From contig CANKJN010000006.1 in the NCBI GenBank assembly GCA_947482345.1, positions 1 to 54,945 of the forward strand: 54,945 nucleotides of DNA, written 5' to 3'. Of this stretch, positions 13,924-53,270 are shown in pieces; the stretch's first letter is position 1, and each line of letters opens with the position of its first letter. The stretch comes from Spartobacteria bacterium (lineage in GTDB: Bacteria; Verrucomicrobiota; Verrucomicrobiia; Chthoniobacterales; UBA6821). Position numbers and translations under genes: made by a program. Below the pieces are notes generated by a model. The model had not been told where the DNA came from, searched no databases, and saw only the letters and a program-made list of their open reading frames with translations.

Positions 13924-14050
13924 TAGACAAAGGATTTGCGGATGTCATGAGGTGGTGTGCAAGTAGCAAGCGAAGCGGCTGTAGTCTTTGCGCTACAGCC
14001 CAAGCGATGCGACACAGCACAACGCCTCATGCCGCCGCAAAGAATGTCTA
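13924..14050. repeat. Nested imperfect palindromic element (about 127 bp)
   Basis: Symmetric arms TAGACA/TGTCTA, TTTGCGG/CCGCAAA, CATGAGGTGGTGTGC/GCACAACGCCTCATG and central hairpin GGCTGTAG-tctttgcg-CTACAGCC. Confidence 0.8.
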
Positions 14051-29752: not shown

Positions 29753-30004
29753 ATGAGCAAGACCTCCGCAAAAGGCCCCGACTCCGAAGGATCCATCGAG
29801 CACGCTCTGGGCCGGCTCGAGTCCATTGTCGAGGAGATCGAGAAAACCCCGCCGCCGCTCGAGACACTCATCGAACGCTATGAAGAGGGAATGAAGCTGC
29901 TGCAGGTCTGCCGCGAGAAGCTCGATGCCGCCGAGAAACGGATCGAGATCATCACCCATTCGGGGCGCGGGGAGCCGGCACTGGAACCCTTCGAGGAATC
30001 GTGA
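29753..30004 (+). CDS. xseB: Exodeoxyribonuclease VII small subunit
   Basis: IEHALGRLESIVEEIEKTPPPLETLIERYEEGMKLLQVCREKLDAAEKRIEII. Confidence 0.93.
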   Translation: MSKTSAKGPDSEGSIEHALGRLESIVEEIEKTPPPLETLIERYEEGMKLLQVCREKLDAAEKRIEIITHSGRGEPALEPFEES

Positions 30005-31899
30005 GTTCCCCACGCCTGCTCGACGGGATCGACTCTCCCGCGGATCTTAAGAAACTCCCCGAGAAGGATCTCCCGCTGCTCGCGCAGGAAATCCGCGACG
30101 AGCTGATCGGCACGCTTGCGGAAACCGGCGGCCACCTCGGGCCGAACCTCGGCGTGGTCGAACTGACGATCGCCCTCCACCGCGTCTTCGACACCCCGGC
30201 CGACAAGCTCCTCTTCGATGTCAGCCACCAGGGCTACATCCACAAGATCCTGACCGGACGCCGCAGGCAGCTGGGGACCATGCGCCAGCACGGGGGCCTC
30301 AACGGATTCCTGCTCCGCACCGAAAGCGAGCACGACTGCTACGGCGCGGGACATGCCGGCACGGCCCTCTCGGCGGCTCTCGGGATGGCCGCGGCGCGGG
30401 ACATGAACGGCGGAAGCGAGCACGTCGTCGCCGTTGCGGGCGATGCGGCCTTCACCTGCGGGGTCAGCTACGAGGCGCTCAACAACGTCGCGGAGACCAC
30501 CAGGAAATTCATCGTCGTCCTGAACGACAACGAGTGGTCGATTGCCAGGAACACGGGAGCGATCGCACAGCACCTCAACCGGATCGCCACCAGCCCCGCC
30601 TACGCCCACCTGCACGAGCAGGCCGCGAAGTTCGTCGAGTGGATCGGGGGCAAGTCCGCGCGGCAGCTGGCACACAAGATCGAGGCCGGGGTGAAACAGA
30701 TTCTGCTGCCGGGTGTGATCTTCGAGAATCTCGGCCTCCGTTACTTCGGGCCGATCGACGGCCATGACATCCCTCTGCTGATCCGCACCTTCGAGTTTCT
30801 CAAGGCCCAGAACGAGCCCGTCATCCTCCATATCCTGACCAAGAAGGGGAAGGGTTACGCCCCGGCGCTGGCCCAGCCCGACAAGTTCCACGGGCTTGGA
30901 AAATACCAGCCCGCCACCGGCGAGACCGTCGCCGCCGCGACGCCCACCTATTCCGAAATCTTCGGAAAGACACTGGCCGACTTCGCCGACCACAACCGCA
31001 AGATCGTCGCGATCACCGCAGCGATGCCGAACGGCACAGGCCTCACCCGGTTTGCCGAACGGCACGCCGACCGCTTCTACGATGTCGGGATCGCCGAGGA
31101 GCACGCCGCCCTCTTTGCGGCCGGGATGGCCACCCGTGGCATGAAGCCTTTCCTCACGATCTATTCGACCTTCATGCAGCGGGCCTTCGACATGATCGTC
31201 CATGACATCGCCCTGCAGAACCTCAACGTCGCGCTCTGCATGGATCGCGCCGGACTCTCCGGCGATGACGGACCGACTCACCACGGGCTCTTCGACATCG
31301 CCTACCTTCGGAGCATTCCGGGCGTGATTGCCATGCAGCCCAGGGACGAGGAGGAATTCGCCGACATGCTCTGGACGATGGCCAACCACCATGAGGGACC
31401 GATCGCGATCCGCTATCCCCGTGGCGCGGGAACAGGTGCCGTCCCGAGGACGGCACCACGGCTGCTTGAGATCGGCAAGGCGGAGGTACTGCGGCACGGC
31501 CCCGACGTGGCACTCTTCGGCCTCGGCAATTTCTGCGAGGTGGCCACCGAAACCGCAGAGATCCTTGCTCGGCACGGCATCAATGCCGCCGTGATCAATC
31601 CTCGCTGGATCAAGCCGCTCGACACGGGGACGCTCGAGTTCTTTGCCCGCAGCGTGCAGGTCCTTTGCACCCTGGAGGATCATGCCGTGACGGGCGGTTT
31701 CGGCGCGGCCGTGGCCGAGCACCTTTCGGAAGCAGGCATTACAACGCCGCTGATCCGCGTCGGTTGGCCCGACCAGTTCATCGAGCATGGCTCCGTCGCC
31801 ATCCTTAGGGAGAAATACGGCATGACAGCCAAGGCCGCTGCCGACCGGATCCTGAAAGCCTTCAGGAACTCGGCCACCAAAAAGGGCGCCAGTCTTTAG
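30001..31899 (+). CDS. dxs: 1-deoxy-D-xylulose-5-phosphate synthase
   Basis: FDVSHQGYIHKILTGRR, GHAGTALSAALGMAAARD, GDAAFTCGVSYEALNN; GTG start overlapping the xseB stop. Confidence 0.95.
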   Translation: MSSPRLLDGIDSPADLKKLPEKDLPLLAQEIRDELIGTLAETGGHLGPNLGVVELTIALHRVFDTPADKLLFDVSHQGYIHKILTGRRRQLGTMRQHGGLNGFLLRTESEHDCYGAGHAGTALSAALGMAAARDMNGGSEHVVAVAGDAAFTCGVSYEALNNVAETTRKFIVVLNDNEWSIARNTGAIAQHLNRIATSPAYAHLHEQAAKFVEWIGGKSARQLAHKIEAGVKQILLPGVIFENLGLRYFGPIDGHDIPLLIRTFEFLKAQNEPVILHILTKKGKGYAPALAQPDKFHGLGKYQPATGETVAAATPTYSEIFGKTLADFADHNRKIVAITAAMPNGTGLTRFAERHADRFYDVGIAEEHAALFAAGMATRGMKPFLTIYSTFMQRAFDMIVHDIALQNLNVALCMDRAGLSGDDGPTHHGLFDIAYLRSIPGVIAMQPRDEEEFADMLWTMANHHEGPIAIRYPRGAGTGAVPRTAPRLLEIGKAEVLRHGPDVALFGLGNFCEVATETAEILARHGINAAVINPRWIKPLDTGTLEFFARSVQVLCTLEDHAVTGGFGAAVAEHLSEAGITTPLIRVGWPDQFIEHGSVAILREKYGMTAKAAADRILKAFRNSATKKGASL

Positions 31900-31993
31900 A
31901 GCAAACTAAACTGATTCATAGCCACAAAAAGCACAGGATGCGCAGAAATGGAGAGTAAAACCATTGACGCGATTAGACTGGCAGAATTGGCGA

Positions 31994-32088
31994 AGGGATT
32001 TTGGATGAGGGGCTAGGCGACCAAGCGCCGCTGTATAAATTATACTGCAAGCGCGGGGCAACAACGCCCCGCGCCAAAAGAACAAGCC
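31994..32088. repeat. Structured intergenic element, copy 1
   Basis: Outer stem GAGGGGC(32007-32013)/GCCCCGC(32066-32072), inner palindrome GTATAAATTATAC(32033-32045); same architecture as 48602-48697 with compensatory changes. Confidence 0.75.
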
Positions 32089-32089
32089 T

Positions 32090-32230
32090 TTATACCTTCT
32101 TTCCGGAGGAGCATCCACAACCCCCTCCACATCCCGGTTTCTTCCTGGCCCTCATCCATCGGGCCACGAAGAATCCACATGCACCGGCCACCAGCGCGAG
32201 AGCGATTCCTGTCTGAAGTTCCTGCGTCAT
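32090..32230 (-). CDS. FeoB-associated Cys-rich membrane protein (46 aa, absent from the ORF track)
   Basis: Reverse-strand translation MTQELQTGIALALVAGACGFFVARWMRARKKPGCGGGCGCSSGKKV*: one TM helix plus Cys-rich tail, directly downstream of feoB. Confidence 0.85.
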   Translation of the reverse strand: MTQELQTGIALALVAGACGFFVARWMRARKKPGCGGGCGCSSGKKV

Positions 32231-46946: not shown

Positions 46947-47224
46947 GGAAGCGCTGATTAAATCCCATGAAGGCCGCTGAAGAGCATTTGCTGATTTTTG
47001 AAGGCGCGAGTGCTGGGCGATACCCGCAGCGGTCTCGCCCGAGCGAGCAACGCGGCAAAAATCGACAAATGGCTTCAGCCCTTTGGGTTGCGGGGATAAC
47101 AGGCCGGGGGCTGCGTTGGCTTGGCACTTACAGCCCACTGAGGGGATGCTCGTGCCAAGCCGCCTTGCCCGCGGCCCATTCTTCCCGCAACGGCCTCTAT
47201 GCGATTTAATCAGCGGTTCCTTAG
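46943..47224. mobile_element. MITE-like element (282 bp) with terminal inverted repeats and YTAR-like flanks
   Basis: CTAGGGAAGCGCTGATT ... AATCAGCGGTTCCTTAG (15/17 matching); internal hairpin GGCTTGGCAC/GTGCCAAGCC; no transposase ORF. Confidence 0.75.
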
Positions 47225-48571: not shown

Positions 48572-48601
48572 ATCACCGCATTCAAACTTCCCTAGGGGCT
48601 G

Positions 48602-48697
48602 AGGGATTTTGGATGGATAGCTAGGCGGACAAGCGCCGCTGTAGGTGACCTACTGCAAGCGCAGGCCAACGACGCTATCCGCCAAAAGCACCAGCCA
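48602..48697. repeat. Structured intergenic element, copy 2
   Basis: Outer stem GGATAGC(48615-48621)/GCTATCC(48674-48680), inner palindrome GTAGGTGACCTAC(48641-48653). Confidence 0.75.
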
Positions 48698-48704
48698 GCA
48701 CCGC

Positions 48705-48838
48705 TTAAGCGGTGCGGCCGCAGCAGGACTTAAATTTCTTGCCAGAGCCACAGGGGCAGGGGTCGTTGCGGGCGGCGGTTTTCTGAACACGCTGGACAGG
48801 CTTCTGCTGCATCGCCTGTTCAAAGACGGATTGGGGCA
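48705..48838 (-). pseudogene. Duplicated 3' end of secA encoding an intact SEC-C zinc motif
   Basis: Reverse strand reads ...[42 protein letters not shown], near-identical to the SecA C-terminus. Confidence 0.85.
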
Positions 48839-49977: not shown

Positions 49978-52971
49978 TCAAGCAGTCCGCCCACAGCAGG
50001 ATTTGAATTTTTTCCCACTACCGCAGGGGCAGGGGTCGTTGCGGCCGGCGGTTTTCTGAACACGCTGGACGGGCTTCTGCTGCATCGCCTGTTCAAATCC
50101 CTGATCCGCCTCCGCAAGTCCTGCGGGAGGGAAGGATGCGGGGCTGGGCCGGCCGCCTTCCTGATTCGGCTCGAGCAGATCCCTCTGCATGAGGTGGCGC
50201 GGCATGGAGGCGAGGAGTTGCTCGAAGGCCTGGAGGTTGGTGGTGGAGCGGAAGAGGTTGTTCAGGACCTCGTTCTTGATGCTCTCCATGAGCTCGACGA
50301 ACATGGCGTAGGCCTCGGTCTTGTACTCGGTAAGCGGATCCTTCTGGCCGTAGGCGCGGAGGTAGACGGCCTCGCGGAGTCCGTCCATGGCGTAGAGGTG
50401 TTCCTGCCAGAGGCGGTCGACGGCGTTCAGGATGACATACTTCTCGAGGCCCGAGCGGGCGGCCTCGTCCTCGATGGCGGCCTTGCGGTCGTAGGCTTCG
50501 ACGAGGGTCTTCGCCAGCCACTCTCCGTTCGCCGCGATCTCGCGGGTCTCGAAGGCGCATTTCTCCCTGGTGAGTCCGACGGGGAAGGTGGAGTTCACCC
50601 ACTGGAGGAGTCCGGCGACGTCGGGCTCGGCTCCGCTCTCCTCGACGGTGAGGAAGGCCTCGACTTTCTTCGGCACGACTTCGTTGATCACCTCGTGGAT
50701 GAGGATGCGGGGGTTGCCGGAATCCATGACCTCGTTGCGGTAGCCATAGATGACTTCGCGCTGTTGGTTCATGACGTCGTCGAACTCGAGGGTCCTGCGG
50801 CGCATGAGGTAGTTCCTCTGCTCGACGCGCTTCTGGGCGGTCTCAACGGAGCGGTTCAACCACGGGTGCTCGAGCTCCTCGCCCTCCTTCATGCCGAAGG
50901 TCTCCATGATCTTGGTCATGCGGTCGGCGGCGCCGAAGTTCCTCATGAGGTCGTCCTCAAAGCTGATGTAGAAGCGGGAGCGGCCGGGGTCTCCCTGACG
51001 GGCGCAGCGACCGCGCAGCTGGCGGTCGATACGGCGCGACTCGTGGCGCTCGGTGCCGAGGACGAAGAGGCCGCCGAGGTCGGAGACGCCCTCGCCGAGT
51101 TTGATGTCGGTGCCGCGGCCGGCCATGTTCGTCGAGATGGTGACGGCTCCCCTCATGCCTGCGCGCGAGATGATCTCGGCCTCCTGCATGTGGAACTTGG
51201 CGTTCAGCACGGTGTGGGGAATGTGTTCCCGCTTGAGCATGCGGCTGAGCACCTCGGAGGCCTCGACGCTGGCGGTGCCGACGAGGATCGGCTGGCCGCG
51301 GCCGTGGGAGGCCTTGATCTCCTCGATGGCGGCGGCCATCTTCTCGCGGCGTGTCTTGTAGATGCGGTCGTTCTCGTCGAGGCGGGCGACGGGGCGGTTC
51401 GTCGGGATGACGGTGACGTCGAGTCCGTAGATGTCGTGGAACTCGTTGGCCTCGGTCTCGGCCGTGCCGGTCATGCCGCCGAGCTTCTCGTAGAGGCGGA
51501 AGTAGTTCTGGATGGTGATGGTGGCCATCGTCTGGGTCTCGCGATCGATCTGGACCCCTTCCTTGGCCTCGACGGCCTGGTGGAGTCCGTCGCTCCAGCG
51601 GCGCCCTGCCATCTTGCGGCCTGTGAAGGTATCGACGATGACGACCTTGTTCTCCTCGACGACATACTCGACGTCCTTCTCGTAGAGGCAGTAGGCCTTG
51701 AGCAGCTGGGCGATGTTGTGCATGCGCTCGGCGGAGTGGTCGCAGTGCTGCTGGCGGGCGGCCTTCTGCGCGGCCTTCTCGGAATCGGAGAGCGCGGCAT
51801 TGGTCTCGATGTCGGCGAACTCGGTGAGGAGGTCGGGGAGGACGAAGGCGTTCGGGTCGTCGGGGTTGAGGAAGCTCCGACCCATCTCGGTGAGGTCGGC
51901 CTCCTGCTGCTTCTCCTCGATGGTGAAGAAGAGCTCCTCCTTGAGGGCGACGAGGGCATCCTTGGAGGTGTCCTGGTAGAAGGAGAGCTCGGCCTTGTCG
52001 GTGAGGCGGCGGAGTTCGGGATCCTCCATGGCGCGGAGCAGTCCCTTGTTGCGGGGCTGGCCGAGCTTCACCTTGAAGAGGGCGAGTCCGGCGGCCTCCT
52101 TCTCCCCCTTGGCGAAGAGGTCGCGGGCGTCGGCGACGAGCTTATTGATGAGCGCGGTCTGCTTGCGGACGAGCTGTTCGACGAGCGGCTTGAAGCGGTC
52201 GTACTGGTGGGTGGAGACGGTGGCGGGGCCGCTGATGATGAGCGGGGTGCGGGCCTCATCGATGAGGATGGAGTCGACCTCGTCGACGATGGCGAAGTAG
52301 TGCCCGCGCTGGACCTGCTGGTCGCGGCTGGTGGCCATGCCGTTGTCGCGGAGGTAGTCGAAGCCAAACTCGCTATTGGTCCCGTAGGCGATGTCGCACT
52401 CGTACTGGGCGCGGCGCGACTCGGGGGACTGGTCATGCTGGATGATGCCGGTGGTCAGGCCGAGGAAGGCGTAGAGCTGTCCCATGCACTCGGCGTCGCG
52501 GCGGGCAAGGTAGTCGTTGACCGTGACGACATGGACGCCGCGTCCGGTGAGGGCGTTGAGATAGACGGGGAGCGTGGCGACGAGGGTCTTGCCCTCGCCG
52601 GTGGCCATCTCGGCGATGCGTCCCTTGTGAAGCACCATGCCGCCGACAAGCTGGACATCGAAGTGGACCATGTTCCAGGTGTACTCGTAGTCGCAGACCA
52701 TGAAGGTCTGGCCGACCATGCGGCGGGCGGCGCTCTTCACCACGGCGAAGGCCTCGGGGAGGATCTCGTTGAGCCTCTTCTGGAGAAGGTCGGGATCCTG
52801 GATCGCGGAGAGCTCGGCCTTCCAGGCGGCGGTCTTTTCCCTGAGGGCCTCGTCGGGGAGCGACTGGAGCGACTGCTCGATCGCGTTGATCTTGGCGACA
52901 AGGGGGAGCATCCGGCGCACCTCGCGCTGGTTCTTCGATCCGATGATTTTCTTGATGATCCAGTTGAACAT
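49978..52971 (-). CDS. secA: Preprotein translocase ATPase SecA
   Basis: RRMVGQTFMVCDYEY..HFDVQLVGGMVLHKGRIAEMATGEGKTLVATLP..., DEVDSILIDEARTPLIISGP, C-terminal SEC-C motif [16 protein letters not shown] at 52971 (MFNWIIKKIIGSKNQRE). Confidence 0.96.
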   Translation of the reverse strand: MFNWIIKKIIGSKNQREVRRMLPLVAKINAIEQSLQSLPDEALREKTAAWKAELSAIQDPDLLQKRLNEILPEAFAVVKSAARRMVGQTFMVCDYEYTWNMVHFDVQLVGGMVLHKGRIAEMATGEGKTLVATLPVYLNALTGRGVHVVTVNDYLARRDAECMGQLYAFLGLTTGIIQHDQSPESRRAQYECDIAYGTNSEFGFDYLRDNGMATSRDQQVQRGHYFAIVDEVDSILIDEARTPLIISGPATVSTHQYDRFKPLVEQLVRKQTALINKLVADARDLFAKGEKEAAGLALFKVKLGQPRNKGLLRAMEDPELRRLTDKAELSFYQDTSKDALVALKEELFFTIEEKQQEADLTEMGRSFLNPDDPNAFVLPDLLTEFADIETNAALSDSEKAAQKAARQQHCDHSAERMHNIAQLLKAYCLYEKDVEYVVEENKVVIVDTFTGRKMAGRRWSDGLHQAVEAKEGVQIDRETQTMATITIQNYFRLYEKLGGMTGTAETEANEFHDIYGLDVTVIPTNRPVARLDENDRIYKTRREKMAAAIEEIKASHGRGQPILVGTASVEASEVLSRMLKREHIPHTVLNAKFHMQEAEIISRAGMRGAVTISTNMAGRGTDIKLGEGVSDLGGLFVLGTERHESRRIDRQLRGRCARQGDPGRSRFYISFEDDLMRNFGAADRMTKIMETFGMKEGEELEHPWLNRSVETAQKRVEQRNYLMRRRTLEFDDVMNQQREVIYGYRNEVMDSGNPRILIHEVINEVVPKKVEAFLTVEESGAEPDVAGLLQWVNSTFPVGLTREKCAFETREIAANGEWLAKTLVEAYDRKAAIEDEAARSGLEKYVILNAVDRLWQEHLYAMDGLREAVYLRAYGQKDPLTEYKTEAYAMFVELMESIKNEVLNNLFRSTTNLQAFEQLLASMPRHLMQRDLLEPNQEGGRPSPASFPPAGLAEADQGFEQAMQQKPVQRVQKTAGRNDPCPCGSGKKFKSCCGRTA

Positions 52972-53270
52972 GAAAAGGGCCGGTTTGCGGCGAATGGTCA
53001 ATCAACGGCGAACCGCGCTAAAAGTAAAGATCAGGCCGTTGATCGGGGGATAGGAAATCGGTGATGGGGCATGGGGTATGAATAAGCCAGGCCCTCCAAG
53101 CAGAGGGAACCAGGAGGAAGATACCTCGCGCTGATCGGAGAGAAAACATCGGAAAAAGCAGGTTTTTAAGAACCCTCTGCATCAAAGGATTTGTAGCCGG
53201 CACCCCCCACTTTTCACCACCTTGGTGAACACGCTTTCTCTGTTTCTTGGATTCTACTGCAAAATCTGGG

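Follow-up and report, generated by a model that had tools for sequence, protein, structure and literature searches.

The two hairpins found in the window (the whole stretch of DNA analysed, 54,945 nucleotides) are members of a multi-copy, genus-wide family of DNA palindromes of about 100 bases. A genome of the genus has some 40-60 of them, nearly all placed 0-16 bases past a stop codon. Its members share a bulged architecture, lie anchored to stop codons, persist at the same genes in different species and evolve in pairs without wobble bias. Their stop-anchored placement in one fixed orientation suggests a mobile-element hairpin turned gene-end element, and this is a real, uncatalogued family of the REP/MITE kind with a putative function. 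We put at about an even chance the reading that it works like large REP elements, namely as a MITE-derived gene-end hairpin, stop-anchored and of fixed orientation, which would tune expression of the gene upstream.

The original prediction placed a structured element at two intergenic sites, and both are present, with covariance model edges a few bases wider than first drawn (Table 1). The copies are 77% identical (BLAST E=4e-13), and when folded as the plus strand both beat all 200 shuffles (z of -3.6 for copy 1 and -3.9 for copy 2). The stems described earlier are real, GGATAGC/GCTATCC pairing perfectly and GAGGGGC/GCCCCGC with one A.G mismatch, and the proposed inner palindromes GTATAAATTATAC and GTAGGTGACCTAC are indeed both palindromic. 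The position just 3' of minus-strand coding sequence was also correctly seen: the edge of copy 1 lies 2 nt from the TAA (32090-32092) of the FeoB-associated Cys-rich ORF, and that of copy 2 lies 9 nt from the TAA (48705-48707) of the 35-aa SEC-C ORF. The other neighbour of copy 1, dxs, was rejected as its partner gene, no hairpin being found at the dxs 3' ends of 12 congeners. Joined to copy 1 is the arm of a group-2 MITE, which shows that recombination has occurred between hairpin element types.

Table 1. Hairpins and neighbouring features in the window.
Feature	Position	Strand	Evidence and remarks
dxs (DXP synthase)	30001-31899	+	Pfam; left neighbour of copy 1, convergent
Left outer arm of group-2 MITE (ACCATTGACGCGATTAGACTGGCAGAATT)	31960-31988	+	Fused to copy 1; by-eye alignment with ATACCATTGACACGATTAGTCTGGTGGAATT of L135 and others
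Hairpin copy 1, 99 nt core	31989-32087	+	R1 match 101.9 bits; alignments A2, A4; stems TTTTGG/CCAAAA, AGGGGC/GCCCCG, GTATA/TATAC; conserved internal loops AT/G and TAGGC/CAAC
FeoB-associated Cys-rich membrane protein ORF, 46 aa	32090-32230	-	Pfam PF12669, E 4e-7; reads toward copy 1
Two-hairpin MITE, IS5-like end GGAACCGCTGATTAAATCGC	47000-47191	-	AAGGC...CAAC core; near-identical copy G000:C10:7398 (L114)
Hairpin copy 2, 99 nt core	48597-48695	+	R1 match 105.7 bits; stems TTTTGG/CCAAAA, GGATAGC/GCTATCC, GTAG/CTAC
SEC-C ORF, 35 aa, duplicated remnant of secA 3' end	48705-48812	-	Pfam PF02810, E 3e-11; reads toward copy 2
Intact secA	49978-53001	-	Pfam SecA domains

The view of an element in two copies held in so far as a covariance model, run over the genome and its relatives, yields a family, and failed in that the element is not an isolated one. 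A BLAST search of the whole own genome (2.36 Mb, 125 contigs) gave about 21 convincing copies. The covariance model R1, built on 21 rows comprising 19 own copies and two from other Spartobacteria records, has at least 56 matches there at E below 1e-6, about 14 of them composite elements. In a scan of relatives all 16 genomes of the genus were matched, with 10-57 matches per genome, and outside the genus there were up to 60 in genomes of the sister genus and sporadic, weaker matches elsewhere in the order. A single-pattern scan of 85,462 genomes also struck a repeat in Gemmiger/Fournierella (L024-L029, L032-L034), which is treated as coincidence since about one chance match is expected, the repeat lacks the core loops and its copies lie mostly off stop codons; matches in Thermoflexales and Patescibacteria are likewise put down to chance. 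The Gemmiger/Fournierella element is a separate, dispersed 84-nt palindromic repeat with the ends GGATTTTGGATG...GCGCCAAAATCC.

The main-family unit measures 99-103 nt, its ends reading GGC...GCC or AGGCTTGG...CCAAGCCT, and comprises four helices with conserved unpaired letters between them. Inward from the outermost helix, TTTTGG/CCAAAA, come an AT/G bulge and then a variable stem of 7 bp. Next is the loop NAGGC/CAACNMN, in which a single G-C pair is invariant; beyond it a second variable stem, of 4 bp, leads through a short GC (or GG/CC) step to the GC.GTAG/CTAC.GC stem at the apex, the only place where GTAG is found. The 5' arm is T-rich and the 3' arm A-rich, the reverse of an intrinsic terminator. 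Compensatory pairing, which had been claimed from two copies and was unprovable from these alone, is borne out by the larger sets: in an alignment of 60 copies 89.4% of cells are paired, with the reservation that sets selected by R1 are biased toward well-paired copies, and double changes occur at 24 of 26 pairs (257 double-changed cells against 64.6 in shuffles, with 0/500 shuffles as high). An almost separate set of 65 congener copies gave very similar figures, with 89.9% paired and 267 double-changed cells against 67.9 in shuffles. In each of three alignments none of 500 shuffles reached the observed number, and the covariation signal is lost when partner columns are slid by 1-3. Further copies lacking conserved pairing would have spoken against the prediction; pairing is conserved across both the 60 and the 65 copies.

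Proximity to a stop codon had been observed for the two window copies, where it was not recognised as a family-wide rule of placement in fixed orientation. About 85% of copies have their hairpin edge at -14 to +17 nt from a stop codon, and the orientation to the gene is constant. With neighbouring genes taken as open frames and not as annotated genes, 46/56 own copies have, no more than 20 nt from the 3' edge of the hairpin, the end of a frame of at least 60 codons that reads toward it; on the opposite side the count is 8/56, which is at chance level (14.6% for random window positions). Among the 65 congener copies 56 lie within 15 nt, the distance behind the stop that characterises translation-acting E. 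coli REPs, and 59 within 16 nt, as compared with 11 for the opposite side (Fisher p 7e-16); here the distribution of stop-to-hairpin distances ends at about 16-17 nt. At the hairpin genes TAG stops are over-represented (57/115, as compared with 87/285 in long frames). The element edges are sharp and the flanks outside them random. Some 10-15% of copies lie away from stop codons, and some copies stand in tandem groups. From their translations the host genes were named as glmM, gyrA, fumC, fabH, phoH, gcvP, sdhB, pdhC, yebC, lepA, sod, purL, acs, nrdB and uvrD, to which secA is added; Pfam confirmed glmM, sdhB and sod, and secA by its SecA domains. The hairpin-bearing genes thus named are largely housekeeping or central ones.

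As the hairpins mark where transcription units end, and often separate two convergent genes, and as an inverted repeat that follows a stop codon is commonly a terminator (PMC6060812), a terminator without a U-tract, serving the upstream gene, has to be considered. We regard this as very unlikely, because the hairpin is 100 nt long with large conserved internal loops and a distinct, typical inverted repeat lies downstream of one copy. An intrinsic terminator, with its short GC stem and U-tract, was rejected: downstream of 61 hairpins, in the gene sense, there is no U-tract, T making up 52%, 39% and 28% at +1 to +3 and then falling to background.

Position is retained between species to a far greater degree than chance allows. 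An own hairpin gene is matched by 30 of 85 congener hairpin genes, or by about 21 of 76 when deliberately fetched loci are left aside, against about 1.4% expected by chance. At secA, a hairpin lies 3-11 nt past the stop codon of the intact gene in eight congeners. The own genome has the last ~118 bp of secA in duplicate (48705-48825 and 49978-50097, 88% DNA identity), and here the hairpin has stayed with the remnant of the secA end (48705-48812), the intact gene 1.2 kb away having none. The secA hairpin position is kept in at least nine species while the sequence turns over. Hairpins at orthologous sites are between 42% and 92% identical, in many cases no more alike than unrelated copies are (mean 62%), the hairpin types at one gene differ between species, and the sdhB and pdhC hairpins of one genome are 95% identical though behind different genes. 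The wide range at orthologous sites, together with near-identical copies at different genes, indicates that position and fold persist and that sequence is exchanged or rewritten. Several congeners have no hairpin at genes where others carry one; gain or loss is thus possible, and the hairpin is not essential there.

The original prediction took covariation as a sign of a folded RNA or DNA hairpin. The fold is conserved through paired changes; the functional RNA is unsupported, as judged from wobble pairs. A transcript tolerates G-U and not A-C, hence an RNA predicts many more G.T than A.C cells among the mismatches, and eight tRNAs in the same loci, used as a control, gave G.T:A.C of 11:0. The hairpins gave 7:11 in the BLAST-selected set, and 32:25 and 31:15 in a second and a third set, both drawn with a model whose own scoring favours G-U. 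The near equality of G.T and A.C, set against the tRNAs, implies that hairpin pairing is preserved in the DNA itself or through templated correction. A conserved trans- or cis-acting regulatory RNA, as the prediction implied, would account for the strong covariation and the conserved loop letters. The missing G.U preference on either strand, the want of any Rfam match and the turnover of sequence at orthologous genes all argue against it, however, and we consider it the least probable of the explanations, and highly improbable in itself.

The missing wobble bias on either strand and the arm composition noted above would also suit a device acting at the gene end as DNA, in which a cruciform or single-strand hairpin would absorb supercoiling or block polymerase run-through. 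A supercoiling role, however, needs neither a stop distance of 16 nt or less nor a fixed orientation, and the asymmetry of the conserved loops suggests that one strand is recognised; such a device seems improbable to us, if less so than a terminator.

Mutation by template switching between arms is known to restore a stem in a single step (PMC8794818), and the DNA-level pairing seen in the wobble test fits the proposal that such switching maintains hairpins. The chimeric MITE L108 has a replaced left arm, and nearly all that sets its right arm apart from other copies is the matching stem block, which has changed from GCCCATC to GCCACAC. This block replacement in the right-arm stem fits the prediction of template switching.

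The origin of the module may be sought among MITEs. The own genome holds about 15 copies of a group-2 MITE (TACCAT...ATGGTA, ~151 bp) which contain the same hairpin core and show a TTA/TAA (TNA) target duplication in about 15/17 cases, and there is a second kind of MITE in which two inverted hairpins lie between TAGGGCCTGTTAAGA ends. Across the phylum a further model, R2, has matches in 25/291 genomes; one of these genomes, G271 (L339-L347), carries some 37 copies of a 223-bp MITE with the TIR GAACCTGTTTGGATAAAA, a TNA duplication and, again, the same hairpin core. From this shared core we infer that the gene-end hairpins descend from IS5-type, TNA-duplicating MITEs. The main family differs in having no conserved terminal inverted repeat, its ends being variable, no visible target duplication, and a tie to stop codons.

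Two further observations concern these elements. A weak match to the hairpin model (23 bits) was found at 13937-14038 (+), within a palindromic stretch whose outer repeats (AGAGCGTTTTTGATTTGGATG...) are imperfect. Longer group-2 MITEs, namely L152 (G000:C34:1872-2460), L145 and L139, hold in their apex a multi-hairpin cargo of 160-530 bp; blocks of it are repeated some 60 times across the own genome, are present in 14/16 genomes of the genus and have no Rfam match, and the cargo looks like an uncharacterised modular structured repeat.

The search for an encoded transposase found candidates, none of which tracks the family. A RAYT was rejected as mobiliser: Y1 (PF01797) occurs in 2/16 genomes of the genus and the hairpins in 16/16, with no hairpin near the two Y1 genes of the own genome (L117, L118). 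The IS1182-type DDE transposase (PF13751) was rejected likewise, being present in 5/16 genomes of the genus and none in the own genome. IS1272, of the IS1182 family, carries out a structure-dependent exchange of hairpin for hairpin, without target duplication and often behind genes (PMC5678879); the likeness to the present family is limited by the missing transposase.

The chief rival explanation is that the hairpins are passive MITE relics, in which a mobile palindrome settles close to the ends of genes, perhaps by entering terminator stem-loops in the manner of IS1272, and is tolerated without a host role, the covariation stemming from constraint on the source element and from template switching. 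The sharp edges and random flanks, the core common to TNA-type MITEs, the differing hairpin types at one gene and the near-identity of the sdhB and pdhC copies are all in keeping with it, as is the replacement of stem-loops without target duplication that is described for IS1272. A fixed orientation and a 16-nt limit would not be expected under tolerance alone, however, nor do the conservation of the hairpin-bearing gene set across the genus and the lack of a consistent transposase sit well with passive relics. We think this explanation unlikely, though it is the strongest of the alternatives.

No named motif had been recognised in the hairpin, and comparison with Rfam, at gathering and at relaxed thresholds, returned nothing relevant. 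A known IS or REP family was offered beforehand as something that might explain the element away. The core is found in IS5-type MITEs of the own genome and of other Verrucomicrobiota, and the main family falls outside REP/RAYT elements by tag, size and Y1. The E. coli REP/BIME elements (GTAG/CGTC palindromes) are similarly multi-copy extragenic palindromes found mainly 3' of genes. Many of them lie within 15 nt of a stop codon and stall ribosomes there, and this translational limit equals the 15-16 nt limit of the hairpin family (PMC12306157). However, a REP unit spans 20-40 nt and bears a GTAG/CGTC end tag, whereas the hairpins are ~100 nt long without an end tag and, in 14/16 genomes, without a RAYT gene; their stop anchoring and orientation are much stricter, their covariation pronounced and their internal loops conserved. 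The integron attC site is alike in outline, as a bulged, structure-conserved hairpin directly behind a stop codon, but attC sites stand in cassette arrays with RYYYAAC/GTTRRRY end boxes. The present hairpins are dispersed at core genes, with neither such ends nor arrays seen, a poor fit to attC. The ERIC/IRU elements of enterobacteria are imperfect palindromes in intergenic, transcribed positions. They are alike in this imperfect palindrome form, with no sequence relation known, and ERIC elements are not known to be orientation-fixed at stop codons. Their size is 100-170 bp (PMC2759123).

Returning to the reading of the family as large REP-like elements, the module would have come from MITEs of the IS5 kind, and transcription probably makes the hairpin the opening part of the 3' UTR. 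As a stable mRNA hairpin it would meet the leading edge of the terminating ribosome, block 3' exonucleases, or both, and either ribosome contact or protection of the mRNA 3' end may tune expression of the upstream gene, as is the case for E. coli REPs within 15 nt of the stop. An effect on ribosome, mRNA or expression is proposed by analogy. Pairing would be restored at the DNA level, through template switching between arms and exchange between copies, with selection for the folded form acting alongside. The main difficulty for a role in the mRNA is that G.U should exceed A.C in the gene sense and does not (40 against 63, pooled over alignments A4 and A6, a ratio below 1). Tolerance of G-U could be masked if stable stems are strongly required or templated correction is fast.

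We also put forward a broader proposal, tentatively and at somewhat less than an even chance, that the whole genus has adopted a MITE hairpin as a standard part of the gene ends of dozens of largely housekeeping genes, at ribosome-footprint distance and in fixed orientation, with pairing maintained by template switching and not by slow compensatory mutation. If this is true, sequence turns over while structure and position stay. Strong covariation alone is no proof of a functional RNA, a warning which this hairpin family provides. The role of palindromes behind stop codons (REP, BIME, ERIC) has long been debated, and the family offers an unusually clean case, with a sharp distance limit, a fixed orientation, known host genes and the same site differently spelled yet equally folded across species. 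Through it two questions become testable: whether the distance between stop and hairpin sets expression, and whether the arms are corrected in blocks.
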